NCBI GenBank assembly: GCA_914767715.1
Contig: OU612067.1
Location: 22,976,162-23,040,161, forward strand
Source of the DNA: Membranipora membranacea
Taxonomy: Eukaryota; Bryozoa; Gymnolaemata; Cheilostomatida; Membraniporidae
DNA length: 64,000 bases
Reading direction: 5' to 3'
Below, in pieces: positions 9,269 to 56,419 of the stretch (within the stretch, counting starts at the first letter, position 1; the number at the start of each line of letters is the position of its first letter). The translations under genes were made by a program, and so were the position numbers. The notes beneath the pieces were generated by a model that saw nothing but the letters and a program-made list of their open reading frames with translations, searched no databases and was not told where the DNA came from.

Positions 9269-11168
9269 TCAAATATACGCTATAAAGGACCAACCTGGTA
9301 TTGGTTCGATTGTCGTGACCACTTGGTTTAGTACATCAGCAAACATGTCCGGTTGATTCTGAATTTGAATGCCAGGTAGAAGATACAGTTTTCTCAGATT
9401 AGTAAAAGTACAGACAGTTTTAGGCATCTGAGTGACATAAGAGGCAGCAGTTGGAGCACCAGCAGCACCTCGAGTCAAGTTCTGATCTGTTCTCTCCACT
9501 CCGTATCTCGTCACTGACTCTCTAACCTTCAAAACATGTGATAAATGTTTTTTTATATGAACAAATGAAGCTGAAACCTCATATTTCGATGTGTTATTCT
9601 AGATCAGCTGTGGGCAACCTGCTGCCTTTTTGCCAGTGCGGCCTAATTGGTAATCTTTTGCGGCCTAATTGTAGCTTTATGTCCTTGAAAATCATACACT
9701 CAACTTTTAACTGTCATGTGGATGTCCAAGTATGCATTACCCTCTTCAAGCACAATTCATTGTTGGGATATCAAAATATTGCCTTTTATATTTACCATGA
9801 GCTAAGTTACTTACATGCTGGCAACTCAAGGAAATTGCCTATTCTACACAAAAGCATCATAAGTGTACTGGCGCCAACTACTCTTTCACAAGCTTCCATT
9901 TGAATAAATACCCCAAACAGTGAAGACATCGTCGTTATATTGTGAGAGAAAAGCAATTCAATCAATTCTTTCACCTTTGGATAATATTTCAACTACAAAC
10001 TGTTTTTTGTAAAGCTGTCATTTTGAGCAAGAGCGGCAAAGTTGTTCTATCAAATATTTGGCATGTTACAATTGCTCCAGCATTTTGGCTGAAATGTTCC
10101 AGATTGAATCTCATTGACAAGTATGTAAATATTTACTGCACCTCTTGAGCGCCCATCCTGCCCTTTGCCCTACTGCTTGAAACACTGGGAAACAGGCATG
10201 TACGAAACCGTTTCCCAGACACAAAACTTAGAAGATTAGAAAAAGAAGATAAAGTAGTTCTGTTAAACTGATGCGAGTTGAAAAATATGATGCCTATTGC
10301 AACATAACAATAACATTTTTAGTTTGTATAAAATACACAGTGCAAAATTATACTTCGCGTTACAAATTTATGCCGGAAAAATTTGTTGTGGCTTTTCGTG
10401 TTGATTCTGCATAAAATGCGGCCTTCCTCAAAAAAAGGTTGCCCACCCATGTTCTAGATCATGCTATCCTACTCAGTGACTGTTACCAATCATTGTGATA
10501 CTTCAGAAGAAACTATTGGTAGAACCTGAGTTTTGGTTTGCTATCACAAAATGCTTTTCTTTTTTAGTTTATATTCTACTGAATATTGATTTCTACAAGA
10601 CCTGGTAAAATAAGAAAGACCTATTCAATGCATATTTTTAACATCGAAAAACCCAATTGTTATGGTGTGCGTGTCACTGCAACTTACAATCTCAGCCATA
10701 GTTGTGACATCATATTTGTGTCCAAGTTTGCAGAATGTTGCAACCACAGCTCTGATAAAAGGTGATCCAGTCCTGGGGTTCCTTGGTGAAGCGAATGCTG
10801 TCAAACAAAGTACAACGGTTGTGAGTGACATATAAGCTGTAAATTTTTGTTTTAATAAATCTTTGTCATCATAACTTAGAGAAGAAACTTACTATTACTC
10901 GAGCTGTCCAGAGATATAAGTTTAGTGAAGACTGATAGAAAAAAACGCTGTTAGGAAATTATAATTCAATGTTTGGCTATTAATTACTTACAATCAAAGC
11001 TCGACTGCATGATGATCATATCAGAAATGGAAATATCTTGAGTATCAGTGTCTATTTCATCATCAGGTGACCTTGACATTGTCATTGTTTGTCTGCTGCT
11101 AACTACATGACCTGCTGTAACAGCTGCTGGACTTGTATCCAAATCATCTCTCAGCATCTCCCTGTTAC
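9269..11168 (-). other. Caspase interdomain linker and small subunit (p10) exons
   Basis: Exon 11168-10992 holds an Asp-rich linker (SPDDEIDTDTQDISISD) that is a plausible maturation site, followed by the first p10 strand (DMIIMQSSF). Exon 10797-10688 has SFASPRNPRTGSPFIRAVVA, the counterpart of the S-W-R-x(4)-G-S-x-F-I block, with Pro in place of Trp but the Arg kept. Exon 9526-9269 finishes p10 (QMPKTVCTFTNLRKLYLLPG) and adds about 33 extra residues before the stop at 9269-9271. A gttggt near 9290 could be an alternative donor, but the open frame to the stop makes this the likely last exon. Confidence 0.82.
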
Positions 11169-14100
11169 CTGAAGTAGAGAAAAAAAGAAAAATGACCACA
11201 TTATGACTTAATATTTGTGTGCCAATGTATCTACACCGCCTATTTCTACCATCTAAAACAATCTGAGATTGATAGGTTTATCATTGTATGCTGCATATTT
11301 TGTTCTAAATGTCTAAATGTTCTATTTTCGATCAGACACAACAAGGAGGAAAGCAGCTATTGAATTGTCTTCTTGATTGTTTTGACATGAATTGATAACT
11401 TTACAAATTCATAACGGTGTGAACTGTATGACAAGAACCGGGTGTAATTTTGGGGGAGGGGGGTTCCTTTGTCGATTGACTCGGCTCTCAGCACCCTCAT
11501 AAGTAGATATTCTTGTTATCATATATTCACTATTCTGAACTGAACTCACTTCCAGCACATGCTTGTACTATGACAATCTTTGGTCTGCCTCTCATAACAG
11601 GGAAGTTCTTTGGAGAAAGTAGGTCATAGATATCCGTAAGCCTAATGAAGACTCTGTCACAGCCTATGATACAGCCCTCATCTCCGTGACTAGTCAGTAC
11701 CAGTACAAACATTCCCATCTGTCTGTGGACTGATTGTCCCGCAGAATCTGTTCTCTGTGTTTCTCTGTGAATAGTGTCTATCATCTCCTAAGGAACAAGA
11801 AAGCAATATACCCAAAATCAATACATTGAAGTGTACATTGCAGGTTACTTAATTAACCTGGTTTCTGGCTAGTTGTGTAAGTTTTAGAAACAACTAGAAA
11901 AGTATCATTTGGGTATCATCATAGAATGATAAGTGAACTGTAGATAGTGGTTGATATTGCTTACCTTAGCAGTATAGTTGGTATGATCACCTACAGTAAC
12001 AAGCCCAAGTTTCTCAAGCACACACTTCATATTCTGATAATCATGCTCTGAACCCCTTCTTGACTGGTTGTAGTGGTTGGACACAATCAGCGCTCTACCT
12101 CGACTTTCTGTCATCTGGTACTTAGCCTAAAATAAGACAAAAAAACAGAAAAATTGATCAAGTTATATCAATGTGTATCGCAATCTCATGATAACGGTCA
12201 TCCATTCAATAACAGGCTGAAATACTGGACAAGAGCAGGTTGAGATAGTGAATGAGATACTGATTCCATTGTTACTATTACTCTTCAACTAAATCAGCCA
12301 AGTTTTAGGTATTGTAACAGTTTCAATAGTGCAGAAAATACAAATCTGATTAAAATACACCAGGATTATTTTGTTTGGCTTTGGTCAAGGATTTCTTTGT
12401 TAGTAGAACTAGGCATTGGTGTCATTATTCTGATATATAAAAACCTGATTTTCAAAACTTTGATCTGCTATTTGCGGGTCTATATTTATATCAGGCTGTC
12501 CTTGCTTCATCAGCTGCAATATATCTTCTACTTCTGTCATATGTATTCCTGCATCTGCTGCCTCTTGTTCATTGACTGTGAGAGCAAATATAAGTAGGCT
12601 ATATGTAGTGTTATAAATGAAGACATGTTATCGAAGCTTTATATGGTTAGTGAGAAACAAGGGACATTTATATTATCTAGGAACCACAGTGAACTGCATA
12701 ATGAGTGAATATTTGTTAGACTATCAACTGAATGTTTTTGTGGAGGTTCACAAGTTATCTGAGTAAATAACAGTGCCAATAAGTATCAATATAAAGAATA
12801 AACATGGTCTCATCACTTTTAATGCACAATCCATCTGGTTGACATTGTGACTTACTTGGGTCAGCTGGCATCTGTTCCCTCTTGATGAAGTCTTCTAGCA
12901 CTCTCACTCCTTCAGTGTTGATTTCCAGACCTAATAAATTACAAAAATATTGCTATTGATTGTTGTATTAAATATATTTACCTAGTAGTGAACTAAATTT
13001 TGATTTTTAAATGCATGCAAAATTAGGAGCTATGAATCATAGGGTCACAGCATCAGACTTGCCAACCTAATTTTTCCAAAATGAGTACAAAAATTTGCAA
13101 AATGCTTAAAAATGAGTACAAAACTCCAGGGTGCCTCAAATGACCAGAAAACGCCCCAAAAAAATTTTCGCGCTTCGCGCGAAAAATGCTATTATCACAG
13201 TAAGTAGTCCTTAGTAGCGTAGGAGTGCAGATCATTCAACATTAGTCTTTTTTCCTTTGCGTTGTAAGGTGCAGTCTGCTAATAATAAATGAGAAATTGT
13301 TTGTAACCTAGCCTGTCTGACAAGACAGGCTATTTGAAACCCTGTTTGCCCATCCTCCCTGGTTTGCCCTTGAAACACTGGGTCAGGAGATCTGAGTTAT
13401 CTCACCCCAACAAGGAGGTAGACAACTTTGTTACTCTGATTAAAGAAAAGTTGAAGTTGGCAGAACCACAATATTCTACAATGGATTACTAGTTATGTTG
13501 TGTCTCATTGAAGAAAAGTTGCAATTTGGCTCATGCAAAACTTGGACAGGTAAAAAGTCAACTGTAAATCAACATCATGGTTTTCTGCAGCCAATACCAG
13601 ATTTTTAGTCTATTATTTAACCATGACAACCAAGTAAACACTAAAGATAAAAGATGCGTTTTTGATTGCCTAATTAGATGAACAGGCGTTTGGAAAACCA
13701 TAAATGAGTACAACTAGCGTTTTGCGTTTAAAACTCAATTAGTGTCAAATAAGCGTTTACAAACGCTTTATGCGTACAGGTTGGCAAGTATGCAGCATAC
13801 ATATTATACATATTTGACTCACATGGGAATCTGAGAGGTTTGGGAACATTTGATCCTGACACATTATCACACCGGCACGTCTCATCTCCAGTGAAGACTG
13901 TGAGATGTGAATTGAGGGGCTTGTAGCTTTTATGTGATTTGTAGCTCTTTCTGAACCATTCAGGATTGACCAGAGTCGTTGGTGACATTTGTTCTGTCAG
14001 CAGACAATGAGAGCAGTAGAAGACATGCTCATAACGAACTCCTTTCCACACAGATTCCAGTTCAGATGTGAGCTGCTTCATCGTACCCAACAGGCTCTTC

Positions 14101-17100
14101 CATGCATCGCAGATTCTCTTAGCTGGTGTAAGAACAATCAGTGACACTTGTTTCTTGTTCTGGTCGTGTAACAGATATCTCATTATTCCGTTATCTTCTT
14201 GTACTTGAGCACCGTTGCTACCAGCTTCTACTGTATTGACTGGATTGATGTGTATGTCTAGAAACCCTGCGGTAATCAGATGAAAGATGTACCCGGGTAC
14301 CGACATACCGTTGAGATACAGATCGATTTTCAGTGGAAATAGCTTTGGGCTAGGTTTAGCTGCAGATATGATTTGACTGCTGAAATAAGGAATGATAAAC
14401 TTCATGCTGTCATCTTCTCTCCCTATGGGCCCGCAAATCAGGTGGAATGTTTTCAGAAGTGTTACGCCCACCTCAGCTGGCAGCTCTGATTCAGATTTGA
14501 GCAGATTGTGAAGCAGGGCAGCATCGATGACCCCTGTTGCTTTGAAATCCTCCACCATTTTCACATACTCTCGTTTGTCAACATCTCTGTCATGGAATCG
14601 GTAGGGCACAAAGACCTCAATACGATCATCCCATGTTTGGTCAACCCGATGATCATACAGTGTCCCTATGAGAGAGACAAGAACATCAGGTCGATGGAAT
14701 ATATATTCACACAGCTTGTCATCGTTTTGATACCACATAATTCTTCCTATTTCATGAATGTATTGTAAGATATATCGTTTTCTGCTCTTACGGAAACCTT
14801 TCACAATGTCAGTAACCTTAATAAAAGGCTTGTCTGTCTGCACGGTAAGATCCATGAGTGTCTTATACCAGCTACCTGGTATCTCCGTCATAAGATGAGA
14901 ACCGGCTTCGCTAAGGGTCTTCTTAAGAGAATAAATAACAGTTTCAGTCGAAGTAGCAGATAACTCCAATACAATATTGATGAGGGGCTTAGATTTGTCA
15001 CTGAAACTTGTCATAGAAAAGAAAGGGCTTGTAGGGGAACCAGCACTCTCTTCTGCCTCTATTATCTGGAGGCGCAGTTTTTCTGCTGTTGCGATAAGCT
15101 GCTGCTTTCTTATATTAAGCTGCTCTTCAGTAAGCTTATCAGTATGCGTGAGAACTAGCACTGGTTGTCCAAGGTTAGGACGTGCTAAGTAGACATGAGA
15201 TATCCATCTCATACAAAGATCTTGTGTTGCAGCATCCTCTCCTTTATCAGTCACCAAACTGTCAAAATCTGCTATATCTATGACAAGAAGCGGGACAGAC
15301 TGGATTTTAAATGTTAATTGGTAGGCAGGGTAATACACTTCGTGCCCACCAAAGTCAATGAAAACTAGCCTAGATTTGTCATCCACTTCCGCTTCACAGA
15401 TATTGAACACTCGAGTTGCTTCGTCCAGCTTGGAGTCTGTAGCAGATCGTTTTGTCAGCACCCGCTGATTTTCCTGAACACTTCTAACCAGGCTTGTTTT
15501 TCCCGCTCTACTTTTGCCGATCACAGTTACTGGGATAAGTTTTACGTTGCTTTCTCGCTTGAACTTTAGATCATCTAGATACTTCTGTAGAGCTTTTCTA
15601 CCCTGTTTAATGACGGCGTAGGGAGGAGATAAAAGTGCCTTGCAGCCGCTAAAGTCGAAGTTTATCAGTGTTTTGTTATTGAGGAGGCTCTCAGGTATTG
15701 AAGTGAGTTTCTTGTTGTCGCTTACATCCAGTGATGTTAACTGTTTGAGGTTCCCAAGGCTGTAAAAAATAACCATATTTGTTAGCTGTGGTATGAATTT
15801 TGCTTGTTTTGAGAATATTAATGATAAATTGTTAACTATTGTTGATTTAGCAATGGAAGTCTGTCTGTGTTTTGTCGTTTAGAGGTGAGTTGTTTGTTGG
15901 ATCTTATATCCGGTGATTGTTATTTGTTCGAGCTTCCCAAGGCTGCCATAATCACCATATTTATAAGCTATGCTTTGTCTTTTGCTTGATTGGAGAATAT
16001 TAATTATTATTGTTGATATAGCGCTGACCAAGCCTAAAAACCTTTGGTCTAGAAGAATTGCAATAATGAAGAAAATCTTGGTCAGATAATTGGCTGGATT
16101 GAATTTTGAATGCGGGGTCATTTGTGTATTGGGTCAGGATCTCTTCAACAACAATTTGAGGAAATTACATTTAATATGCTTATTATGGCCTATTATGCCA
16201 ATAACTTTCACTAAGACACAAAAATAGTGAAACAATATGGAAAGCAAAATACTGCATTGATGCGAAATAGGTTAGCCTGCTCATATTTAATAGGACAGAT
16301 ATCGGTTTTAGCATATATTTTGATGATGAAAGTGTTTTGATTATCAATGCTTATGATCAATTTTCGGGGGATTGCTATTTGATATTTGTTGTCAGGCTGC
16401 TATATTGATGAATTTCAGATCTTCGAAAACCCTTAATTCTCGGCCACTTGCATCTAATGAGAAAATAAAATTGCATCCAGACAAGACAAATGACTGATCA
16501 AACGAATCTTTTTATCTGATAACATAAGTCTGTCTATATTTTTGTAGTTAACCGTGGAAGGGATAATACATGCTTTTTGAGCTCTTTCTCCCTAACCCAT
16601 CTTTTGTTGGTAACTTAAAAAAATTTAGTTACCGAATCACAATGGAGCAGCCATTCACTATGATCCCATTCAATTTTCCACGTTGAATGAAGTTGACCAT
16701 TCTCAATTCAAATGGATTCCTACTACACCATGATAAAACTTGCCTGCCCGCCTGGTCGGGCCTCCCGGATTTTTTTTTTTTTCATGTGTGTTTATTGCTA
16801 AAGATAAAATTGATAATATATTTAGACAAAGTGAAATTGAGTGAGAGAAAGGCATAAGATTGAATCATAAAACGTGAATAATTGCAATATAAATATGTAA
16901 AAAGTAAAGGAACAGTCTGATAGCCTGCGGCTAGCGTGTAGACCGGCCAACTGTAAATCACGAAGGTCAAATACAAGACACACCGGCAAGGACGCGTAGG
17001 ACGTGTGCCCCCACCAGCTGCAGTCACCACTGCCCCACAGACAGGAAGCTAGGCTCACGGGCACGCAAGTCTGAGAGCCTATCTCCACTCCCTTTAGGCA

Positions 17101-20100: not shown

Positions 20101-23100
20101 TGTAATAGTCACTTCAATTTCCTTGGATGTATGTTCAATCATTCCATGTTTTGATATTATATTGATAGAGAACAAAGTGCTTTTAATAAGCATTATTATT
20201 TTTAGTATCACCTCAGGACTTCACATTAATCAACCCCTACCCACAGAGTGATGTGATGACTGACTAGATGTGATATCACTTACTTAGCTGTAAGCATTGT
20301 CACGACTACTAGCAAGTAGTTTGAGTAGGCCGTACTTCTAGAGTACACTGTGCAGATGAGCACAGTAGCTATAAGTGTGTCAGGTGATGATTATTACATG
20401 GTGGCTTAAGGCTTGTCAGGTGAAAATCATGACAGAGCGCGGAAAATGTCCGAAGTTTTATTCACTGCGCAAGGCATATTTGTTTCCCCATCAAACCAGT
20501 CCCAGTATGAACTCATTTACACTTGAGTGTCATGGTGTGTTATATAATCACCAATTGGCTGCACCTATGATATTAATGGTCGTAAATTATTAAGTGTGTG
20601 GTATGCTCTACGATATTACTTCATCCAGCATGGTCTCTGGATACAGCAGTTACAGTTAGTCTCAGTCAACCATGATTTCATTTGAGTACCTTGAAATTGC
20701 ATGTTGATAACATTTTTGTGACAGTCACTGAGATAATGTTAGGTAGTAAAACATATCCAGAGGTAACTATGTGATGATTAATGAGTAACACACACAAAAA
20801 CGAAGAGCACTCATAATTTAATCTGTGTCTTTTGCAACAGCAGGTTGTTTTATCAGGGGTAGACGAGATGTCATGTAAAAGTATAGAAATGTTACAGGGA
20901 CTACTGATAATAAGCATTCAGATTGGAAGTGATGACTTTTGGATGTCATAATTCTGACAACAGCTGCATGTGGCGATTTCCAACTAAAATAAGGGTTGGT
21001 ATTTTAGCGTAAATAGTTCATTAAACCATATCATCTTATACCAATTTGGTGAAACCATTTTTGAAGCACTGTCCCAAAATTTGCTGCAAATTTTCTATAG
21101 TACTATATCATGTAATATATGATACCCAAGTGCAAGGTTTTTATACCAAAATATTTTTACAAAGATTATTTTGATTACGGTAAAAAAGATAAAATGTTCA
21201 CCTCTATTGTGAAATATCATATAAACCAACGAATCATGAGCTTTACACCGATTGTATATCACAGGCCAATGTACATCTAACTGCTGGGTGTCTGTTTTGA
21301 AGGAAGGATACGTAATGAACCAGTGAAAAGTATATTAGCACCAAGATATTAATCGATTTCCTTATCCTCATAGTTGTGACCAGCATCTCAAATCACAGGA
21401 GTGATTCCCTCGGTTTTTTTTCTAATGAGAACATATTAATGGTTTTCTGACATTAAAATCCAAGTATTGAACTAGTACTGTACCAAAACTCTCTATAATT
21501 TAATAAACAGACCTGAATCCTAAGCTACAGTAAAGTTGCCAGCAACTCCCCATAATAATGATAAATCATGACAATACAATTTGTTACAAATAAACACAGA
21601 GAGGAAACAATACAGTTACAGTATATGGAGAGTGATAGTAAGATAGAGGATATGACTCACTTCTCAGGTAGAGTTCTCAAGTCACACGCCTCCAAATCTA
21701 TTATCTTAAGTGACCTCATCCCTCCTAGTCCTTCAGGTAATGTCTGTAGGTTGTTATTAAAGCGTATATGTAACTCCTCCAGTTCAGACAGTGAGCAGAT
21801 GCTGTGGGGATAAAATGTTGACCAATAAATATATATAGTTTTCCGACTTAGATTTTATTACTGCCACTGGCTGAGAAGAAAATTAACAACAATAATAATC
21901 ACAGGATTTCTACTGTTTGGTAAAATAATTTGATGTTAAATCATGTCTAATTTTGCATACAAAGTACCACTAACAAAAAGTAGGTTGAGACTTTGGACAA
22001 CCTTGATAAGCAAGCTAGGGGGCCTGTTACAAGTGTGAGGCATCTTCTCTAGGAAAAGAGACAAGAAGCAAAAGAGACGAAACGCAGTGGCATGTTAAAG
22101 GGGCCCTTATTAGCCTGCAGGCTCACAGTATCAATAAACCTAACTAAAAAAGCAATACGACAGTGGTCAGTAAGCATAACAAACAGTTGATAGAGAATTT
22201 CTTATCCTAGTGATTTAAAAATAAGGATTTTTTTATCAGGATGTAAAACTAATTAAGTTTGACCATGCATATTCAGAATACTACCGATACATTCTCATTC
22301 CTAAAATTAAATATGTTGGGAGTAATCCTGTCATATAAATAAAGAAGATAACTACCTTTTGCCATGTGTATCGAAGGTGAACTTGACACCAAAATATTGC
22401 CTTTCTGAGAGAACCCTTGTATTTGTATCATTAGTATAAGATGTATAAAGTACAGATTCAGTTCAGTACATGAAACCCTGTTATCTATCTGCACCTGACA
22501 GGTACATAATCTCTGTCAACAGGTGTTAGATAGTCTGCTATAGGACATTGCAGCGGAAACTGACAAATATTGAGTTGTTTTGTTCATAATGTTATAATGT
22601 GTTTTGTTAAATGTAAGCACTAATTGGGTGCAGTTAAGTTTTTCTTGGTCCAAAATTCTGGAGTGTCTCATTTTTTTTGTGATGTAATTTTCACCCTGTG
22701 TGGTATGCTCTATTATTATATTACTTCATCCAGCATAGTCTCTGGATACAGCAGTTACAGTTAGTCTCAGTCAACCATGATTTCATTTGCGTATCTTGAA
22801 ATTGCATGTTGATAACATTTTTGTGACAGTCACTGAGATAATGTAAGGTAGTAAAACATATCCAGAGGTAACTATGTAATGATTGTCTTTTGCTTGATTG
22901 GAGAATATTAATCATTATTGTTGATATAGCACTGACCGAGCCTATAAACCTTTGGTCTAGAGGAATTGTAATAATGAAGAAAATCTTGGTCAGATAATTG
23001 GCTGGATTGAATTTTGAATGCTGAGTCATATTCTTTGTGTATTGGGACAGGATCTCTTCAACGACAATTTGAAAAAATTACATTTATTATGCTTATTACG

Positions 23101-32100: not shown

Positions 32101-35100
32101 TCCTTTCCATTTAAATCCTAGAATAGAACTAGGACTGTAACAAAACTATTAAGCGATTAATTGACACCCTCTTATCAACATTTATTAACCAGACCTGAAT
32201 CCTAAGCTACTGTAAAGTTGCCAGCAACAGCCCATAATAATAATCATGATAATATATTTTGTTACAAATAAACAGAGAGAAGACGATACGGATACAGTAT
32301 ATGATGAGTGATGGTAAGATAGAGGATATGACTCACCTTTCTGGTAGAGTTCTCAAGTCACACCGAGACACATATATCTTCTTAAGTGACCTCATCCCTC
32401 CTAATCCTTCAGGTAATGTCTGTAGGTTCTCATTACAGGGTAAGTATAACTCCTCCAGTTCGGTCAGTGAGCAGATGCTGAGGGAACAAAAATTTCATTC
32501 AATAATTATATATAGTTTTCCGACTTAGATTTTATTACTGCCACTGGCTGAGGAGAAAATTAAGAACAATGGTAATCACAGGATTTCTAATGTTTGGTAA
32601 AATAATTCTATAGCAATTTATATCCAATTTTACGTACCAGTACCACTAACAAAAAGAAGGTTGAGACTTTAGACAAGCTTAATTACCAAGTTAGAGGGCC
32701 TGTTACAAATGCGAGGCATCTTCTCTAGCAAAAGAGACGAGAGGCAGTAGCACCTTAAAGGGGCACTTATTAGCCTGCTGGCTCTCAGTCCAAATAAACC
32801 TAACTAAACCAACAATACACCAGTGGCCAGTAAGCAATACAATCCTGGTGTTTTAAAAAATAATACTACCAACACATTCTAAATCATAAAATTAAATATG
32901 TTGGGAGTTATCCTGCCTTATTATTATAGAAGATAACTGCCTTTTGCCATGTGTATCAAAGGCTAATTTGACAATTAAAAAGGTTCTGAGAGAACCCATG
33001 TATTTCTATTATTAATGAAAGAAATATAAAGTACAGATTCAGTTCAGTACATGATACCCTGTTATCTATCTGCACCTGGCAGGTACATATCCAGCTTTGT
33101 CAACAGGTATTAGAAATTCAGCCATGGGACTTTGTAGTGAAAACTGACAAATATTGAGTTGTTTTGTTTACAATGTATGATATGTTTTGTAGAATATAAT
33201 TACCTATTGGCTGCAATTAGGATATTCATGGTAAAAAAATATGGATTTGCTCGGTTTGTTTTCACCCTGTGTGGTATGCTCTATGATATAATTTCACCCA
33301 GCACGGTCTCTGGATACAGCAGTTACAGTTAGTCTCAGTCAACCATGATTTTGTTTGAGTATCTTAAAATTACATATTGATAACATTTTTGTGACAGTCA
33401 CTGAGATATTGTCAAAAGTAAAGTAGTAGTAAAATATATGCAGAGGGTACTATGTTATGATTAACATTAACAACACAATAAACAAAGAGGTCTCATTATT
33501 TTATCTGTGTAAATTACACCAGCTGGCTCTTTTATCAGTGATAGATGAGATATCATGTAAAAGTACAGAAATGTGACAGGGACTACTGATAACTAGCATT
33601 CTGATATGGCAGTTATGGCTTTAGAATGTCATAATTCTGACGACAGCTTCATGTGGCAATTCCCAACTAAAATAAGGGTTGGTTTTTCAGTGTAAATAGT
33701 CATTAAACCAAATCATCTTATACGAATTTGCTGAAATCATTTTTAAAGCACTGTCCAAAAATTTGTTAAAAGTTTTGTACATTATGTGTTATATAATACC
33801 CAAGTGCAATGTGTAAATACCATAATATTTTGACATTATTTTTGATGATCACAAAAAGAAAGATGGAATGTTCACCCTCCTCGCAAACAACTGAATATAC
33901 TGACGGGAATCCCAAGATATCAAAGGCTAATTTGACAATTAAAAAGATTCTGAGAGAACCCATGTACTTCTATTATTAATGAAAGATATATAAAGTACAG
34001 ATTCAGTTCAGTACAAGATACTCTGTTAGCTATCTGCACCTGTCAGGTATAATTCTTTGTCAAGAGGTGTTCGATATTCTGCTATAAGACTTTGTAGCAG
34101 AAACTGACAAATATTGAGTCGTTTTGTTAATAGTGTTTGATGTGTCTCGTAGAAAGTATATTAACAAGAAAATATTAATCTATCTAGCAGCTCAAATCAC
34201 CGGAGTGATTATCCAGGGTTTTTGTCTGATGGGAACACATTCTGACATTTCTGACATTTAAATCCTAGTATAGCGAGTTGATTCAAAGCCAATGTTTTTA
34301 TAATCTTATTCAATCCCCAACAAGAATTGGCGAAACCAAAATAAGTATTTTAGATCACATTATTGTTAAAAATTCAAATCGGCACATAAAGTCATGCACT
34401 CTAGATTTTGACATTTCAGATCATAAGCCGGTGTGTGTGCATTCTTTGTTTACAAAAAGCACAGCCATAATTTTAACAAAAATCCCTCACAAATGAACAT
34501 AACTAAAACAAATTATGTGTTATTACAAGAAATTATTCAGCAACAAAATTGGTCCCCATTACAGAAATATCTGACACCAACACAGCTTTTAAACTTTTCA
34601 TTGAAAAACTAAGCTCATGTGTTGATGATGCAAGCAACAAAATTAGTAGCAAAAAGCATCAACGTTCTACATTCAAGAAACATTGGATGACGAAGCAATT
34701 ATTTACACTTACAAAAGAACGTACTAAGCTTCACAAAATGAGAAAATTACAACCATTCAATGGTGAATTACAAATGCGGTAACTGCGTAAAGATGGCAAA
34801 GAAAGAGCATTACAAAGCTCAGTATGATAATTGTTGTGGGAATACCAATGAAAAATGGAGATTTGTCATGAGTTTTATTAAAAAAGATACCGATGGTTCA
34901 CATTTGAAAATTCATCTCGGACATGATGATGATCAGAGCATTTCCGTAGCTGATAAATTTAATGATTTCTTTATCAATGTTCGTACTAATCTGGCAGAAA
35001 ATCATCCAACCACTGCAACCAAATTTACAAAATATTTTCCTAAAATTGATAATGCTTTTGCAGCTGTAATTTTTTTCACTGAAATTGAGACCGCTGCTAC

Positions 35101-38100: not shown

Positions 38101-41100
38101 TTGTAAATCATATAAAACAACGAATCATAAGCTTTGCACCGATTGTATATCACAGGCCAATGTACATCTAACTGGGTGTCAGTTTTGAAGGATACGTAAT
38201 GAACCGTAATGAACCAGCAGACTTCTCAAGTCACACCCGGACACTTGGTATATTCTTAAGTGACCTCATCCCTCCCAATCATGTAGGTAATGCCTGTAGG
38301 GTCTCATTATAGCGTAAGTATAACTCCTCCAGTTCAGTCAGTGAGCAAATGCTGAGGGAACAAAAATTTCATCCAATAATTATATATAGTTTTCCAACTT
38401 AGATTTGATTGCTGCCACTGACTGAAAATGAAAAACAATGATAATCACGGGATATCTAATGTTTGGTAAAATAATTTTAAATTGAATTATGTCCAATTTT
38501 GAATACCAGTACCGCTACGAAAAAGTAGGCTGAGACTTCGGACAACCTTAGTTACCAAGTTTTTGGGGCCTGTTAAGAGTGTGAGGCACTTTCTTTAACA
38601 AAAGAGACGAGAAGCAAAAGAGACGAGAAGCAAAAGAGACGAGAAGCAAAAGAGACGAGAAGCAAAAGAGACGAGAAGCAAAAGAGACGAGAGGCAAAAG
38701 AGACGAGAAGCAAAGGAGACGAGAGGCAGTGACACCTTAAAGGGGCACCTATCAGCCTATAGGCTCTCAGTATGAACAAACCTAACTAAAACAACAATAC
38801 ACCAGTGGTCAGTAAGCAATACAAACGGTAAATAGAGAATCTCTTTATCCTGCATTTTAAAAAAACAAATTTTCTGATAAGGATGTAAATGCTTGGCCAT
38901 GCTGATTATGAATACTACCGATAGGTTCCCATTTCTAAATTTCAATATGAGGGGAGTTATCTTGTAATATAAATAGAGTAGATAACTGCTTTTTACCATG
39001 TGTATCAAAGGTTTTTTTTTACTAGTTCAGTACATGATACTCTGTTATCTATCTGCACCTGACAGGTACATATTTTTTGTCAACAGATGTTAGATATTCT
39101 GCTATAAGACTTTGTAGGGAAAACTGACAATAATATTGAGTTGTTTTGCTTACAGTGTTTGGTGTGTCTTGTAGAATATAAACATTTATTGGCTGCAGTT
39201 ACGATATTTTTGGTCAAAAATTATGGATTTGTTCGATTTTTTTTGTGATGATATTTTCACCCAGTGTGGTATGGTCTATGGTATAACTTCATCTAGCATG
39301 GTCTCTGAATACAGCAGTTACAGTTAGTCTCAGTCAACCATGATTTTATTTGAGTTTCTTAAAATCACATATTGATAACATTTTTGTGACAGTCACTGAG
39401 ATATTGTTAGGTAGTAAAACGTTTGAAAAGTTTTTTTTTCTGATGAGAAAATATTTCTCCTCTAAAAGACCACGCTTCATTGTTTTCTGGCATTAAAATC
39501 TTAGTAATGAACTAGTACTGTAACAAAACTATTCAGGGATTAATCGACGTCCTCTCATCAACACTTTAATAAGCAGACCGGAATCCTAAGATACTGTTAA
39601 GTTGCCAGCAACACCCCTAAATGATAGTAATTATGATAATGTATTTTGTTACAAATAAACACAGTGAGAAGTAGATACGGTTACAGTATATGATGCGTGG
39701 TGGTAAGAAAGATGATATGACTCACCTCTCGGGTATACATCTCAGGTCACAGTAACTCACATTTATCTTCTTAAGGGACCTCATCCCTCCTAGTCCTTCA
39801 GGTAATGTCTGTAGTTTCGCATTATCGGATATATCTAACACCTCCAGTTCAGACAGTGAGCAGATGCTGAGGGAACAAAAATTTCATTCAATAATTATAT
39901 AGTTTTCCGACTGGCTGAGAAGAAAAATAACAACAATAATAATCACGGGATTTCTAATGTTTGGTAAAATAATTTAATGTTAAATCATGTCTAATTTTGC
40001 ATACAAAGTACCACTAACAAAAAGTAGGTTGAGACTTCGGACAACCTTGATAAGCAAGCTAGGGGGCATGTTACAAGTGTGAAGCATCTTCTCTAACAAA
40101 AGAGACAAGAAGCAAAAGAGATGAGAGGCAGTGGTATGTTAAAGGGGCCCTTATCAGCCTGCAGGCAATCAGTATCAATAAACCTAACTAAAACAGCAAT
40201 ACCACAGTGGTCAGTAAGCATAACAAACAGTTGATAAAGAATTTCTTATCCTAGTGATTTAAAAATAAGGATTTTTTTATCAGGATGTAAAATTAACTAA
40301 GTTTGACCATGCATATTCAGAATACTACCGATACATTCTCATTCCTAAAATTAAATATGTTGGGAGTTATCCTGTCATATAAATAAAGAAGATAACTACC
40401 TTTTGCCATGTGTATCAAAGGTGAACTTGACACCAAAATATTGCCTTTCTGAGAGAACCCTTGTATTTGTATCATTAGTATAAGATGTATAAAGTACAGA
40501 TTCAGTTCAGTACAGGAAACCCTGTGATCAATCTGCACCTGACAGGTACATAATCTTTGTCAACAGGTGTTAGATATTCTGCTATAGGACATTGTAGCGG
40601 AAACTGACAAATATTGAGTTGTTTTGTTCATAACGTTAAAATGTGTTTTGTTAAATGTAAGCACTAATTGGGTGCAGTTAAGTTTTCCTTGGTCCAAAAT
40701 TCTGGAGTGTCTCAGTTTTTTTTGTCATGTAATTTTCACCCGGCGGTATGCTCTACGATATTACTTCATCCAGCACAGTCTCTGGATACAGTTGCAGTTA
40801 CAGTTAGTCTCAGTCAACCATGATTTCATTTGAGTATCTTGAAATTGCATGCTGATAACATTTTTGTGACAGTCACTGAGATAATGTTAGGTAGTAAAAC
40901 ATATGCAGAGGTAACTATGTAATGATTAATGAGTAACACACACAAAAACGAAGAGCATTCATTATTTAATCTGTGTCTTTTGCAACAGCAGGTTATTTTA
41001 TCAGTGATAGATGAGATAGCATGTAAAAATACAGAAATGTGACAGGGAATACTGATAACTCGCATTCTGATATGGCAGTGATGACTTTAGAATGTCATCA

Positions 41101-44100
41101 TTCTGACGACAGCTTCATGTGGCGATTGCCAACTATAATAAGGGATGATAATACAGTATAAATGGTCATTAAACCAAATTATCTTACACAAATCTAGTGA
41201 AACCATTTTTGATGCACTGTCCCAAAGTTTCTTGCAAGTTTTGCATAGTACTATATTACGTAATTAATATATGATACCAAGGCACAATGTTTTAATACCA
41301 AAATAGTGTTAAGGTAATGTCAAAGACCGATCCGAATATCAACATATCATATTTTGTAAGTTTTTTTGTATGTCATGTCATGTCATGCATATTGCCTTTC
41401 AACTAATTAGCTTGCATATTGCGAAAACAGTGGACTCTCGAATACACCTGATATTTTTCGCAACTTTTGCATAACGTCAAATGTGCTGTCAAAATGACCA
41501 TTATTGTGGCCAAAGAAATTTTTTTTGAAAGTTCTCACATACGAAGCCGCTTTCATTAGTCATGGTGCACGCAGGAAATGCCAACAGATTTTTTCACTGC
41601 ATCTTCATTTTTCTTGAATTTAACGCAAAAGAATGGCCAAAAACACCTCAAAAGTCCCAAAAAATAGCTGTTTTTCGGCATTCTTTTGCGTTAAATTCAA
41701 GAAAAACGAAGATGCAGGGAAAAAATCTTATGGCATTTCCTGCGTGCATCATGGCTAATGAAAGCAGATTCGTATGTGAGAACTTTCAAAAAAACTTTGT
41801 TTGGCCACAATAATGGTCATTTTGACAGCACATTTGACGTTACGCAAAAGTTGCGAAAAATATCAGGTGTATTCGAGAGTCCACTGTTTTCGCAATATGC
41901 AAGCTAATTAGTTGAAAGTCAATATGCATGACATTTGAAGTGTACTCTAAGGGAAAATCATAATTAATTTTGTTTCGAGCCTATGATCTGTTCTGAATTA
42001 ATAATTGAAATTTCACACATTTTCACGGCTTCACAAAAAAAAGTGCGTTGTATGGCGTAACGTAAAAAGTCAGTTTAGACTAGTCTTATATCAAAGAAAA
42101 TCAAATTTTACTATGAACTCAATCTCTAAGTATACATTCCACCTGTTTTGAAATTTCTTGCAATTAATTTGACTCCTCCATCTGCTTTGACAAAAACAGC
42201 GTTTTCTGCCTCATTTCCTCCCTTTAATGACACAACGTCATCGAATCAAGTTTTTGTTCAGGTATTCATTTTCAGCAGCTCGGCAGCTTTCCAACGGTAT
42301 ATGATATGTCGATATTCGGATCGGTCTTTGATATTACCTTAACAATAATTTTGATAGTCACAGAAGAAAAATATGAAATGTTCACCCCTTTTTAAAAATA
42401 ATATAATAAAATAAGGGTTGGTTTTTCACTGTAAATAGTCATTAAACCAAATCATCTTATACAAATTTGATGAAACCATTTTTAAAGCACTGTTCCAAAA
42501 TTTGTTAAAAATTTTGTATATTATGTGTTATATAATGCCCAAGTGCAAGGTGTTAATACCATAATATTTAGACATTAATTTTGATGCTCATTCAAAAAAA
42601 GATGGAATGTTCACCCTCCTTGCAGACAACTGAATATACAGACGGGAATTCCAAGATACTGTTTAGTTGCCAGCAACAAGGCACAATAATAATGAATAGG
42701 ATAATATATTTTGTTACAAATAAACACAGAGAAGAGACGATACTGTTACAGTATATGATGAGTGATTGTAAGATAGAGGATATGACTCATCTCCCTGGTA
42801 ACCTTCTCAGGTCACAGAGAGACACTTTTATATTCTTAAGTGACCTCATCCCTCCTAATCCTTTAGGTAATGTCTGAAGTATGGGATTACGGTGTGTATC
42901 TAACACCTCCAGTTCAGATTTGATTACTGTCATTGACTGAGAAGAAAATTACCAACAATGATAATCACGGGATTTCTAATGTTTGGTAAAATAACTTTAT
43001 ATTGACTCATATCCAATTTTGCATACCAGTACCACAAAGAAAAAGTAGGTTGAGACTTTGGAAAACCTTAACTACCAAGTTAGGAGGCCTGTTAAAAGTG
43101 TGAGGCACTTTCTTTAACAAAAGAGACGAGAAGCAAAAGAGACGAGAAGCAAAAGAGACGAGAAGCAAAAGAGACGAGAAGCAAAAGAGATGACAAGAAA
43201 AAGAGACGAGAGGCAGTGACACCTTAAAGGGGCACCTATCAGCCTATAGGCTCTCAGTATGAATAAACCTAGCTAAAACAACAATACACCAGTGGTCAGT
43301 AAGCAATACAAACGGTAAATAGAGAATCTCTTTATCCTGCATTTTAAAAAACAAATTTTCTGATAAGGATGTAAATGCTTGGCCGTGCTGATTATGAATA
43401 CTACCGATAGGTTCTCATTTCTAAATTTCAATATGATGGGAGTTATCTTGTAACATAAATAGTGTAGATAACTGCCTTTTATCATGTGTATCAAAGGTTA
43501 TTTTTTACTAGTTCAGTACATCAATGAGCTCCCAAGTGTTTAATAACGCAAACCTCCATGGATGAACAAGTGGTAAATTCACACAGGTAGGGGTAGGGGT
43601 TTTGCAGGTATAATTTTTACCTGCAAAACCAAGATGACCTAACTTGACCCTGAAAAACCGTCTTCCCCAAAACTTGCCAAGGTCTCAACAATTTATCGCA
43701 ATATGTCGCAAAAGCTACATTGTGCGGATCTCTGAGATTGCATTCTATATAGTGATGTTTTAAAGTAGATATTAAAAAATGTATCTCATTAAACAGTCAT
43801 ATTAATATAAATTTTAGAGAAGATCTCTTTCTCTTTACCTCCTGCATAATAAATAACCGATAAGCTAGACATAATCAAATATGAAAACCTGAAAAGAGGT
43901 CACCCAGGGACAGGACACATCATATATAACCGGTGCACAATATATACACTCAATATATTTCTATAAATTGGGTGGTGGAAAATGTATAGAAATGCCAGCG
44001 CATGGTGAATTATCACAATAGCTCAAGGTCGGTTAGCGTAATGGCCACGTATTTAATTCCTTGCTTCTAATCTTCCAGATTCACTTAACTCATGTCTCAG

Positions 44101-45451
44101 ATCTCTAATCGCGAATATAACTACTATGTAGTACCCAGGTGTGTCATCTATTTTGAGCCCAAATAGCCTGTTATTGCCAAAACTTTACTTGTACACATAT
44201 TTTGTTTTTCACCATTAGACTTTTTCAGTGACGCTTTCTGGTTCCAGAACCCCGATAGTTAGGTTACATCAGGAAATCTGCTCAATCTTACAGGGATGAT
44301 AACTCCACCGATATATAATTTTTTTTGAATGACTGAATTTATATCACCTGACTTTGGCTTTCCAACTTGATAACTGAATAACACATTAAACATTTTTTTG
44401 TTTGGAACAAACTTGCAAATGTCATTGCACCTCAAATATATGGTACCACTAACCGTTCTAACTGATCTGAGTGTGGTATCTCTCCGAGAATGAGTTGTTT
44501 CAGATGCGGAGCTATCTCATGTAGGTTAGGTGGGATATCACCTCTGATCATCATATGTGTAATTTGTATTCTCTGTGAAGCCTTTCTCAGCTCTTGTAAT
44601 GTCATTGACTTTTCTGACACATCATGTATGTGGTCAACTTGAGGTTGCCCAGCATGTCTGTACCAGACATGATAACCTAAAAGGTGAGTAATTACAGAAA
44701 ACATTTGAGTCCTATATTAATGTTTTGTATTTTTTAGTTTTCTGTGCTCACATTCAAACTCCAATAAGGATGATCTTGATTTATAGAATATGATTAAGAT
44801 GCATAAACACATGTATTCAACAGTGAAGTGATCCATATGAGACCCAATACACTTTTTAAGTTCTAAAACACTTCTGTAACAACTAGATAATCGAGAAGAC
44901 AAACAATAATCACAGAACATTAATATGCGTATACATTTACTTTTACTTTTTAATTTTTACTTTCATTTTCATTGGTATGCTGTAGGCCTAGTTGACCTTA
45001 CAAAAACAGACACTCAAACACCATATATATTATGTTTTCTGTGCCTTGAATGAATTTCATGAACTGGAGAAGGAACAACAATAATAATTATTCCAGGAGT
45101 CAGTTGTTGATCAAGAAAACAAATTGCACGCTTTACAAGTTTGTAATTTGACTTGACTATGTTTAAAATAAACTAGCCTGTATTCAGTATGACGCCAAAG
45201 GTGATATTCTTGGAAAGAGAATCTAGTGTGTATGCCAATAAATCAAGTGTAGGAGTTGCTTCCTTCACAATCATGTACTCTGCTCTTTCATTTATATCAA
45301 CACAGCCGCAAAATTTAGAAAACTGGTTGCTATCAACAGAGGTATTTATAGTTTTATGAGTCTCACCTTGACCTTCTTCCTCAGTGTTTCTCCTCAGCTC
45401 ACTCTCCCTAGCACTGTCTGCCCCACTAGGATCCTCATTCTGTGATGTCAT
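9269..45451 (-). CDS. LRR-ROC-COR-caspase fusion protein (predicted 1319 aa)
   Basis: The coding exons, 5' to 3', are 45451-45367, 44676-44454, LRR cassettes 39866-39726, 32477-32337, 29001-28861 and 21801-21661, then 15759-13823, 12930-12856, 12575-12445, 12126-11965, 11787-11550, 11168-10992, 10797-10688 and 9526-9269. Every junction is GT-AG, every phase matches, and the total is 3960 nt with one terminal stop, which is strong evidence for one transcript. The domains are an N-terminal LRR-like region (about 60-102), LRRs (103-315), ROC GTPase with P-loop GKSRAGKTS near 372, COR, a linker of about 68 residues, and a caspase from about 1006 with His near 1093 and Cys near 1136. There is no signal peptide or transmembrane segment, so it is presumably cytosolic. 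By family logic the LRRs would sense, ROC-COR would switch or dimerise, and the caspase would be the effector; that is inference. No death-fold domain is seen. The ATG follows a cag acceptor, so a 5' UTR exon lies upstream of 45454. Confidence 0.8.
9605..10451. mobile_element. Non-autonomous hAT element with 8-bp target duplication
   Basis: The ends are CAGCTGTGGGCAACC and, in reverse complement, CATGGGTGGGCAACC, followed internally by the tgcggcc words typical of hAT elements. Both sides carry the same 8 bp, ttctagat (9597-9604 and 10452-10459), the hAT target-duplication length. No transposase is encoded. It lies in the intron between the last two caspase exons. Confidence 0.85.
11550..12126 (-). 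other. Caspase large subunit (p20) exons
   Basis: Exon 12126-11965 encodes the start of the fold (YQMTESRGRALIVSNHY ... GSEHDYQNMKCVLEKLG). Exon 11787-11550 encodes MGMFVLVLTSHGDEG, with the catalytic His in SHG, and KIVIVQACAG, with the catalytic Cys. The peptidase C14 consensus is QACRG or QACxG; Ala after Cys is unusual, but the dyad is intact. The Arg that opens the S1 pocket in R-G-x-A-L-I is present (SRGRALIV). Phases are 0-0 and 0-1. Confidence 0.88.
12445..12930 (-). other. Linker exons between COR and caspase
   Basis: Exons 12930-12856 (CLEINTEGVRVLEDFIKREQ, MPADP) and 12575-12445 (EQEAADAGIHMTEVEDILQL ... INIDPQIADQSFENQ) chain phase 1, phase 1, phase 0 into the caspase. They encode about 68 mostly acidic, probably helical residues. 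This is shorter than a typical CARD or DED, and I recognise no death-fold signature. The final donor (cag followed by gttttt) is weaker than the others here. Confidence 0.65.
13823..15759 (-). other. ROC-COR exon (1937 nt, 645 aa)
   Basis: It opens with a final LRR pair (LGNLKQLTSLDVSDNKKLTS, IPESLLNNKTL). Then comes a ROC Ras-like domain: P-loop GKSRAGKTS near residue 372, DFGGHEVYYPAYQ as the G3 element, and THTDK in the place of the NKxD/TKxD specificity motif. The COR domain follows, with IPGSWYKTLMDL, IGRIMWYQND and FHRPDVLVSLIGTLYDHRVD. A late CSHC pair with nearby Cys residues may form a small metal-binding patch. The layout resembles MFHAS1/MASL1-type Roco proteins rather than LRRK, since no kinase follows. 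The exon ends at 13823 with gtgagt in phase 1; the open frame beyond it is intron. Confidence 0.85.
15883..15942 (-). pseudogene. Relic copy of the start of the ROC exon
   Basis: Just upstream (gene direction) of the ROC exon, a gcag acceptor is followed by LGKLEQITITGYKI, a degenerate match to LGNLKQLTSLDVSDNK. It runs to a stop within 20 residues. This looks like the decayed copy of the exon's first LRR. Confidence 0.5.
16765..17172 (-). mobile_element. LINE-type 3' end, inverted
   Basis: Read on the minus strand, a GC-rich segment beginning near gtccttgtta is followed by an AT-rich 3' tail with aataaa and an A-run at about 16782-16771. The pattern (ggtccttgtt, then aagt..ct..ggga) echoes the 3' region of the + strand LINE at 36.09-36.40 kb. 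An almost identical copy lies at 23672-24070. Confidence 0.5.
17180..19925 (+). mobile_element. LINE fragment A (5' region, ORF1 and endonuclease, broken)
   Basis: An ORF1-like stretch at about 18420-19210 has a heptad-rich coiled coil (IDTIERKQKETEDKQTEMEN) and then a C-terminal part with IIVNEYLNPAEQKLFYLA, as in ORF1 proteins of CR1/L2-type LINEs. It is split by stops. From 19521 an apurinic-type endonuclease starts (NRNGGGIAIYVS ... VVGDINIDLNPEN ... NLIQSPTRIGET), also with stops. Homology ends near 19920, where it joins LRR-unit intron sequence (compare 36845). It cannot move by itself. Confidence 0.75.
19926..22880 (-). repeat. LRR-exon unit (intron plus cassette 4)
   Basis: One member of the tandem family that carries the LRR cassettes. 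19926-20590 is almost the same as 36845-37510, and 21860-22860 as 39930-40930. Shared marks are gtacagattcagttcagtac, tatctgcacctg.caggtac, ctctggatacagcagttaca and an aaaagagacgagaagc minisatellite. Confidence 0.75.
21661..21801 (-). other. LRR cassette exon 4 (live)
   Basis: A 141-nt, phase 2-2 exon reading ICSLSELEELHIRFNNNLQT, then LPEGLGGMRSLKIIDLEACD and LRTLPE. Its last two bases (aa) join the first base (c) of the ROC exon to make Asn, giving an uninterrupted LRR (LPEN-LGNLKQLTSLDVSDN). Confidence 0.8.
22885..26245. repeat. Segmental duplication, copy 2
   Basis: Second copy of the 15.96-19.93 kb block. Its left junction near 22880 joins LRR-unit intron sequence (atgtaatgatt) directly to the duplicated block, and its right side continues into the RT part of the LINE that copy 1 has lost. 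Confidence 0.7.
23672..24070 (-). mobile_element. LINE-type 3' end, inverted (second copy)
   Basis: Near-identical to 16765-17172, including the flanking gcccgcctggtcgggc hairpin outside the A-run. It moved as part of a larger segmental duplication rather than by separate insertion, because the flanks also match. Confidence 0.5.
24071..28035 (+). mobile_element. LINE fragment B (ORF1, endonuclease and RT, broken)
   Basis: It contains the coiled-coil ORF1 (24839-25261, with an internal deletion relative to fragment A), IFINEYLNPDEQKLFYLARQ, endonuclease (NRSGGGIAIYV, VVGDINIDLNPEN, ISDHKPVC), and reverse transcriptase pieces (KPLLKK; QFGYRSQRSTTDA; GVPQGSVLRP near 27.5 kb; LFADDTNIF near 27.6 kb). 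Frameshifts and stops run throughout. The end near 28031 reads like a LINE ORF2 C-terminus. The block order EN-RT and these motifs fit the CR1/jockey group. Confidence 0.8.
28861..29001 (-). other. LRR cassette exon 3 (live)
   Basis: A 141-nt, phase 2-2 exon reading ICSLTELEVLYLDDNENLQT, then LPEGLGGMRSLKSIYVSRCD and LRTLPE. The acceptor is ccccacag and the donor is ag followed by gtgagt. Differences from the other cassettes cluster at the variable positions after L-E-x-L, on the presumed concave LRR surface. Confidence 0.8.
29219..29255 (-). pseudogene. Truncated LRR cassette relic
   Basis: Only the acceptor and first 37 nt of an LRR cassette (ICSLTELEELYL) remain before the homology breaks. 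It matches the start of cassette 2 and lies about 215 bases upstream, in gene direction, of live cassette 3. Confidence 0.65.
31064..32105 (+). mobile_element. LINE fragment C (internal EN-RT piece)
   Basis: It begins in the endonuclease (IQSQCFYNLIQSPTRIGETK, DHIIV, ISDHKPVC) and ends in the early RT near KPLLKK. Both ends are truncated at junctions with LRR-unit sequence. It is nearly identical to the start of fragment D, as expected if the two were copied with the surrounding unit. Confidence 0.75.
32106..35340 (-). repeat. Tandem duplication, unit 2
   Basis: Starts at the same catttaaatcctagaatag boundary word, holds cassette 2, matching intron sequence and the start of LINE fragment D. 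The high identity to unit 1, even in non-coding sequence, implies a recent duplication. Confidence 0.8.
32337..32477 (-). other. LRR cassette exon 2 (live)
   Basis: A 141-nt, phase 2-2 exon with intact splice sites, reading ICSLTELEELYLPCNENLQT, then LPEGLGGMRSLKKIYVSRCD and LRTLPE. Its 5' part matches the relic at 29219-29255, while its 3' part is almost the same as cassette 3. It lies in the second copy of a 3.2-kb tandem duplication. Confidence 0.8.
34270..36402 (+). mobile_element. LINE fragment D (EN end, RT and 3' UTR with A tail)
   Basis: It shares its 5' junction with fragment C but continues through RT: FKKGDKTRCNSYRPISIL near 35.3 kb, GVPQGSVLRPLLFLIYINDL near 35.5 kb, and the catalytic FADD at about 35579-35590. 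The C-terminal FWGHASESQL and QIQTLQK motif follows. A 3' UTR ends in an A-run at 36391-36401. The RT lacks about 180 bases of the fingers/palm region present in fragment B, and frames are broken, so it is inactive. Confidence 0.8.
38218..38351 (-). pseudogene. Dead LRR cassette (internal stop, lost donor)
   Basis: It begins with a good ccctcag acceptor and reads ICSLTELEELYLRYNETLQA, then hits TGA (38281-38279) where live copies have Gly of LPEGLGG. The 3' end is replaced by unrelated sequence, so no donor remains. Confidence 0.75.
38599..38728. repeat. 16-bp minisatellite, about 8 units
   Basis: The unit aaaagagacgagaagc is repeated about eight times. The same site in sibling LRR units has one or two units (22.06, 29.5, 32.7 and 40.1 kb) or six (43.1 kb). 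Confidence 0.9.
39726..39866 (-). other. LRR cassette exon 1 (live)
   Basis: A 141-nt exon, phase 2 at both ends, between a ccctcag acceptor and a gtgagt donor. It reads ICSLSELEVLDISDNAKLQT, then LPEGLGGMRSLKKINVSYCD and LRCIPE: two leucine-rich repeats of 23-24 residues. It has no stop and is usable in frame with the neighbouring cassettes. Confidence 0.8.
41313..42338. mobile_element. Non-autonomous TTAA element with a long internal hairpin
   Basis: TTAA at 41309-41312 and 42339-42342 flanks terminal inverted repeats starting GGTAATGTCAAAGACC and matching over about 45 bases. Inside, arms 41382-41636 and 41679-41933 are nearly perfect inverted repeats of about 255 bases around a 42-base loop. 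No transposase is encoded. The TTAA target suggests piggyBac-type mobilisation. It interrupts an LRR-unit intron whose intact sequence is seen in sibling units near 30.61 and 42.56 kb. Confidence 0.75.
42791..42917 (-). pseudogene. Dead LRR cassette (lost acceptor, mutated donor)
   Basis: It reads LEVLDTHRNPILQTLPKGLG, then GMRSLKNIKVSLCDLRRLPG. The first part of the exon and its acceptor are deleted, joining cagttcag directly to intron sequence. The donor is atgagt instead of gtgagt. It can no longer be spliced as a cassette. Confidence 0.75.
43113..43212. repeat. 16-bp minisatellite, about 6 units
   Basis: Same unit and same position in the LRR-unit as the array at 38.6 kb, with two degenerate repeats near its end. 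Confidence 0.9.
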
Positions 45452-55888: not shown

Positions 55889-56003
55889 GTATATATATAT
55901 ATATATATATCATATATAAGTATATACATACATATAATTGAATATAAGTATATACATACATATAATTGAATATAATATATATATATATATATAATATATA
56001 TAG
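55889..56003. repeat. (AT)n runs with a 28-bp duplication
   Basis: Two AT dinucleotide runs (about 55889-55910 and 55975-56001) flank two copies of a tatacatacatataattgaa-type word. They lie in the intron directly after the JAMM exon of the BRCC3-like gene. Confidence 0.85.
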
Positions 56004-56419
56004 AGTAGACATCAGATTAATAATTACCGACATGAGAAGGCCAGACGGTGATGTGTGGATGAGAGTGATACCATCCTATTACCCTCATTGGTCTCTTTAA
56101 CTTCTGACCTAGACTCTGAAATAGAAACATTACAAAGTAATCTAAACATTTGTTACTATGGCTTCTACCAAACTGGAACGAGAAATGATTGATATGTAAA
56201 TATATATAAGGAAGCTATATATGAAATGTTTATAGCAAATAAAGACACTGAAGTTGTTCTAGAATTTAAGCGCATACGGTAAGAGACATCAGCTGTGATA
56301 TCAAATGTTCCATGGATTCATCGAGATGCCCTCATAGGCTAGTGATAGAACAAGCAAAAATCTGAAAGGTTGCTTAATCTACAGTCATAATTTCATGTCA
56401 GCCATATAACAAGTTTGAT

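Follow-up and report, generated by a model that had tools for sequence, protein, structure and literature searches.

Animals normally keep sensor and caspase on separate proteins, which are joined via CARD, DED or death-fold assemblies. In bacteria, it has been described that proteins composed of LRRs, an AP-GTPase and COR bear C-terminal effectors, including a caspase (PMC8195603, in the part covered here). Other partners of the Roco core have been reported, as far as the consulted portions of the papers go: ROC-COR is combined with TIR in Aplysia proteins (PMC9334734), while group 3 of the brown-algal Roco proteins carries a C-terminal peptidase domain, IPR009003, and groups 1 and 2 display LRR-exon shuffling (PMC11378527). 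A review of the Roco proteins sorts the family into three groups and, in the sections considered, names no protease (PMC6337361). According to the same sections, Roco proteins alternate between monomer and dimer with the nucleotide, the dimer being made by the C-terminal half of COR; in the Chlorobium protein, the GTP form is mainly a monomer and the nucleotide-free form a dimer (PMC6337361).

The locus studied here lies in a window of 64,000 nucleotides (the whole stretch of DNA that was analysed) from the bryozoan Membranipora membranacea and almost certainly encodes LRRs, a ROC GTPase, COR and a caspase in a single protein. It resembles the bacterial proteins, going by their description, in having LRRs, a ROC-type GTPase, COR and a C-terminal effector, but its caspase is by sequence animal-type, with CED-3 as the best match among solved structures, so that the fusion most simply arose separately. 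Because the design is described in bacteria it is not new in kind; among animals, within the reach of the searches, it is new. The original prediction that no LRR-ROC-COR-caspase had been described is thus too broad, given the bacterial examples (PMC8195603) and nine animal proteins present in databases, and holds, within the partly covered sources, for descriptions in animals: none was met among the literature matches listed, which took in part of the matching papers and few subscription ones. The accompanying list of Roco partners (kinase, death and ankyrin) was too short, as CARD in Lingula, TIR in Aplysia and a peptidase in brown algae also occur.

A parallel in layout from another lophophorate comes from the brachiopod Lingula anatina, in which two proteins named MFHAS1 homolog at NCBI (P0016 and P0017) also present LRR, Roc, COR and then an apoptosis-type domain. 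In Lingula the slot after COR holds a CARD (49.4 and 50.8 bits, residues about 1045-1130, in P0016 1047-1130; the COR matches are under the Pfam cut-offs), which would recruit a caspase, whereas here it holds the caspase itself. The algal domain IPR009003 we take to be a serine-peptidase superfamily. Brown-algal Roco proteins share with this gene a C-terminal peptidase (group 3) and shuffled LRR exons of phase 2, but, in the portion of the source at hand, their peptidase is not a caspase and their LRR exons measure 72 nt, against 141 nt here. CED-3 and caspase-9, -2 and -1 resemble the present caspase in sequence, in QACxG, in the His and in the p20 pocket residues; they carry a CARD/DED prodomain where this gene has LRR-ROC-COR. 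MFHAS1/MASL1, LRRK1/2 and DAPK1 share the ROC-COR tandem, with LRRs in MFHAS1 and LRRK1/2, but in the review sections covered they have no protease and end in a kinase, a death domain or nothing (PMC6337361).

The gene was rebuilt from the sequence as 14 exons on the minus strand (9269-45451), chained by 13 GT-AG introns with matching phases. The rebuild returned the same 14 coding exons, phases, GT-AG borders, span and 3960 open nucleotides that had been predicted. The spliced ORF of 3960 nt includes the TGA stop and encodes 1319 aa with no internal stop, in the order N-terminal module, LRRs, ROC, COR, linker and complete caspase. In Pfam, the spliced protein matches Peptidase_C14 with 101.3 bits (cut-off 21.4), LRR_8 with 77.6 bits (cut-off 27) and Roc PF08477 with 27.9 bits (cut-off 27), and COR-A with 18.6 bits, under the cut-off of 35.3. 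Exon 1 (45367..45451) contains the proposed start ATG at 45451 and a hydrophilic N-terminus (MTSQNED); its junction reads ...EEEGQG-YHVWYRHAGQPQ, and the counterpart in P0074, a Watersipora subatra protein, reads ...EREGQNLEVWYRHSGQPQ. Exon 2 (44454..44676) encodes a conserved N-terminal module, VWYRHxGQPQxDHI (here VWYRHAGQPQ), followed by LRRs, and by itself matches P0074, P0073 and P0079. The proposed start of this gene's product is devoid of a myristoylation-like signal, unlike P0073 and P0074, whose N-termini MGAKSSKD and MGCSLSRR look like such signals.

Elsewhere in the window, a BRCC36-like deubiquitinase gene lies on the minus strand at 53743-56214 (BRCC36_C at 53743-53973, JAB at 56017-56214). 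CUB-domain exons on the plus strand, found in six of the seven plus-strand ORFs tested, flank the gene at 572-3545 and 61226-62522 and belong either to two CUB genes or to one that encloses this locus as a nested gene. A perfect 12-nt tandem repeat of 7.6 copies (60874-60964) is located close to them.

The LRR part consists largely of repeated exons. Four intact cassettes of 141 nt, all of phase 2-2, correspond to exon 3 (K1, 39726..39866), exon 4 (K2, 32337..32477), exon 5 (K3, 28861..29001) and exon 6 (K4, 21661..21801), all on the minus strand. Three broken copies on the same strand fall outside the gene model, so that the cassettes, intact and broken, extend over 21661-42918: one at 38218..38350 with an in-frame stop and a frameshift, one at 42796..42918 in which no usable acceptor was seen and the donor is ATGAGT instead of the GTGAGT found elsewhere, and a truncated one at 29210..29254. 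Duplication of exons is thus how this region evolves. Downstream of K2 and K3, the introns are identical in 199 of 200 bases and the exons in 129 of 141 (12 differ), and this combination of near-identical introns with divergent exons suggests, from the sequence, recombination or conversion among cassettes. Of the 46 residues of the cassette 15 vary, 8 of them among the 10 that are exposed on the strand and 7 among the remaining 36 (Fisher test, 0.0008), with exposed positions assigned from the general LxxLxLxxN motif once the differences were known. The introns between 16000 and 44000 contain long duplicated blocks, for instance at a spacing of 3206 nt with 99-100% identity, and ORFs that look like LINE-type reverse transcriptase fragments.

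Exon 7 (13823..15759; 1937 nt) encodes the last LRRs, the ROC GTPase, COR-A and COR-B. The features that place the protein in the Roco family are present: a ROC GTPase domain with a P-loop (GKSRAGKTS, followed by DFGGHE and THTD) and, directly after it, a COR with both its parts. The weak Pfam score of COR-A was addressed through a structure model of exon 7 (mean pLDDT 83.4), whose 19 top-ranking matches in Foldseek belong without exception to Roco proteins; as modelled, the ROC-COR exon has the Roco fold, COR-B included. At the end of COR (13869-14015), three cysteines (C582, C585 and C630 of the exon 7 protein) are invariant in an alignment of 23 sequences, and this CSHC...C arrangement is a possible candidate metal site.

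The caspase occupies the five last exons. Exon 10 (11965..12126) opens p20, carries the S1-pocket Arg (SRRGSEHDY) and matches Pfam C14; exon 11 (11550..11787) completes p20 with the catalytic His (TSHGD) and Cys (QACAG) and scores 42.1 bits with Pfam C14; exon 12 (10992..11168) encodes an Asp-rich intersubunit linker, with 8 Asp in 45 residues, and the first p10 strand; exon 13 (10688..10797) continues p10 (ASPRNPRTGSPFI, aligned with SWRNSARGSWFI of CED-3), and exon 14 (9269..9526) contains the p10 end (CTFTNLRKLYLLPG), a tail of about 35 residues and the TGA stop. The Pfam C14 match spans positions 1-227 of the 233 of the model, p10 included. CED-3 is the best sequence match among solved structures (PDB, 6.5e-18), and caspase-9, -2 and -1 also appear. 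In an alignment of this gene with nine W. subatra proteins, counted by eye, the catalytic His ([S/T]HG) and Cys (QAC[A/S]G) are present in ten of ten sequences, as are the p20 S1-pocket Arg and Gln, with the roles that these residues have in caspases generally. Nine sequences reach the position of the p10 pocket Arg: seven have it, namely this gene and six of eight W. subatra proteins, and P0074 and P0079 have Lys instead; P0076 is too short to cover it. This gene thus has all three Asp-pocket residues (p20 Arg and Gln, p10 Arg). By sequence, the caspase is CED-3-like, animal-type and complete, and it is probably active; the Lys of P0074 and P0079 may shift specificity. The intersubunit linker of P0074 differs in length and composition: 180 residues, repetitive, with a single Asp. 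In searches for a hidden death-fold, no family was found at E 1 for the two ORFs of the linker between COR and the caspase, nor any death-fold family at E 0.01 across the full protein.

The same architecture has relatives in a second bryozoan. Nine proteins with COR and a caspase were found, all from Watersipora subatra and distributed over contigs of six different lengths (64-76 Mb), with two queries, the C-terminal region of this gene and the caspase of P0073, which is itself included in the count. Both searches admitted lengths between 0.55 and 1.75 times that of the query, and due to this filter, stand-alone caspases could not show up; a separate scan scored the 7994 best word-sharing candidates. 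The domain order of the nine is that of this gene, with 28.7-31.4% identity in the main alignment, and the catalytic dyad is present in all of them. Seven of the nine span from LRRs to caspase and differ in LRR number; P0076 and P0080 have no LRRs, P0076 also lacks most of p10, and P0080 part of ROC. A further W. subatra protein, P0011, is LRR-ROC-COR with no caspase, and its model ends, by eye, roughly where the caspase would begin. The proteins closest to this gene are P0001-P0010. For P0075, a whole-protein model has pLDDT below 50 at residues 17-23, 792-810, 820-825, 837-901 and 1024-1176, which include the linker and p10. The best 50 rows of two fold searches with that model are LRR and Roco matches with no caspase among them; as such rows fill the lists, this says nothing against the caspase, whose identification rests on sequence. 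NCBIfam matches of P0073, P0075 and P0016 are all under the cut-offs and mostly within the LRRs. In databases, the W. subatra proteins are called MFHAS1-like or 'uncharacterized', and in the literature examined no description of them as a family was met: the words 'caspase' and 'immun' are absent from the main text of the W. subatra genome note (PMC12902671), and 'caspase' from those of PMC13326412 and PMC7576161. With this family, the design is shared by two animal genomes or more and is no curiosity of a single one.

Initiator caspases become active when they are brought together. The reading that we favour, with fair confidence, is that the gene encodes an animal Roco receptor with its own CED-3-like caspase effector, switched by COR dimerisation or proximity and free of adaptors. 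The LRRs would bind a ligand, and the nucleotide state of ROC would control dimerisation through COR-B, as in other Roco proteins; the behaviour of the Chlorobium protein means that either nucleotide state could switch the caspase on. The COR dimer would then draw the two attached caspase domains together and activate them by proximity, a mechanism that, by analogy, appears reasonably probable. Self-cleavage would follow at Asp of the intersubunit linker, perhaps also in the COR-caspase linker, and the freed protease would elicit cell death or an immune signal. Covalent attachment would in this way stand in for the CARD/DED adaptor step of inflammasomes and apoptosomes. Of the one-protein sensor, switch and protease originally proposed, the anatomy has held up (catalytic residues, Roco fold, CED-3-like caspase), and the function is what we infer from it.

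A rather unlikely alternative accepts the single gene and assigns it another function: the caspase would be regulatory or repurposed, with a developmental role or a shifted specificity, and the LRRs would sense a host protein and not a pathogen or a non-self colony. It would suit the two paralogues with Lys in place of the p10 Arg, as well as MFHAS1, the nearest vertebrate relative by name, which the review, in the part covered, terms poorly characterised (PMC6337361). It has to face, however, the catalytic dyad and p20 pocket Arg kept in ten of ten sequences, LRR cassettes that duplicate and vary at exposed positions, the C-terminal CARD of the Lingula relative, and the titles of papers, seen as titles, that tie MFHAS1 to TLR2 signalling and sepsis. 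Quite improbable is that the locus represents a decaying copy, a pseudogene or inactive member, of an otherwise real family; the three degenerate cassettes and the heavily repeated introns point that way, but all 14 exons are open, the splice sites intact and the catalytic residues present.

It would be extremely improbable that a Roco gene and an adjacent but separate caspase gene have been chained wrongly here and that the W. subatra models suffer from the same annotation error. The question turns on the two exons between COR and the caspase, exon 8 (12856..12930, phase 1-1) and exon 9 (12445..12575, phase 1 to 0), which encode a poorly conserved linker of 68 residues, with 6-10 identities to W. 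subatra proteins over 44-68 aligned residues. Taken singly, at a threshold of E 0.01, ten of the 14 exons (2-7, 10, 11, 13 and 14) match a set of ten W. subatra proteins (the nine with a caspase plus P0011), and exons 1, 8, 9 and 12 gave no significant match to it. Having no homology of their own, exons 8 and 9 rest on phase, splice sites and position, although exon 8 weakly resembles, by eye, P0011 and P0078 past the common COR end PLRFPC. The poor conservation of the bridging exons fits two genes, as do a start codon inside exon 9 (MTEVEDILQ...), an ATTAAA at 12823 in the intron that separates exon 8 from exon 9, and hence between COR and the caspase, and the existence of P0011 without a caspase.

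Several observations speak against that chaining error. In BLASTP, residues 27-1287 of the window protein align with residues 42-1383 of P0073, a 1386-aa W. subatra protein, in one alignment (30% identity, 609 bits), and an identical error would be needed in nine models on contigs of six different lengths in a genome whose Ensembl annotation is, in the part of the source covered, mainly based on transcript alignment (PMC12902671); the database names of the proteins are those of NCBI. The phases agree and alternative bridges are few. In the 1696-nt gap, a single first-exon candidate, exon 8, has at least 25 nt, incoming phase 1, a donor of at least 7/9 and a pyrimidine-rich acceptor, and two single-exon bridges from phase 1 to 0 have a donor of at least 6/9, one of them exon 9, whose 6/9 donor is the weakest in the gene; these thresholds were chosen once it was known how exons 8 and 9 scored. 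The COR exon itself has a good donor (8/9). Among 23 proteins scanned, judged on protein letters, 11 (P0001-P0010 and P0012) have a frame that seems to continue beyond the COR exon, and in all 11 the residues after COR are PC and then E or K, P0006 stopping at the E directly after PC. Such letters fit a donor that reads T|GTGAG or T|GTAAG at the same spot, so COR is probably not the gene end in those 11. In raw counts, the seven introns between the COR exon and the stop contain no AATAAA and two ATTAAA, and the 1269 nt past the stop hold five signals of the AATAAA/ATTAAA type.

Trees of eight sequences (P0076 and P0080 were left out as truncated) were compared. The caspase data are compatible with the ROC-COR tree (p-AU 0.371), as expected if ROC-COR and caspase were inherited jointly; on the opposite side, the ROC-COR data reject the caspase topology (p-AU 0.003), the conflicting caspase nodes having low supports of 38 and 52. 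Read-through of two genes was judged unlikely on the basis of the relatives, the donor letters, the poly(A) signals and the bridge enumeration. The Roco part and the caspase very probably belong to one gene, as the sequence evidence has it, and the prediction of a single polypeptide is corroborated by the identical order in the second genome. Bacterial contamination was rejected on the 13 introns and on a scan of genome contigs with the ROC-COR exon, which gave 15 pattern matches and no tblastn relative, in a set that perhaps does not include the M. membranacea genome.

For the favoured reading, a Roco receptor that carries its own caspase, a wider version can be proposed, which we hold tentatively and just short of believing: a bryozoan multigene family of one-chain, adaptor-free inflammasomes with shuffling, surface-variable LRRs, acting in intracellular immunity or colony allorecognition, in which the caspase has taken the place that a CARD fills in the Lingula relative, with a parallel in bacteria. 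If a lineage has retained and multiplied such a single-chain form, this would suggest that nothing beyond proximity is needed. It would also give a minimal system for how the Roco GTPase switch governs output, where the way in which nucleotide state, COR dimerisation and output are coupled, a point of debate for LRRK2 in the review sections covered (PMC6337361), would be readable by a simple protease assay. Bryozoans are colonial, and self/non-self recognition based on cell death has been discussed, in the part of that source considered (PMC8195603); with this family, they would gain a testable candidate receptor family for such recognition.
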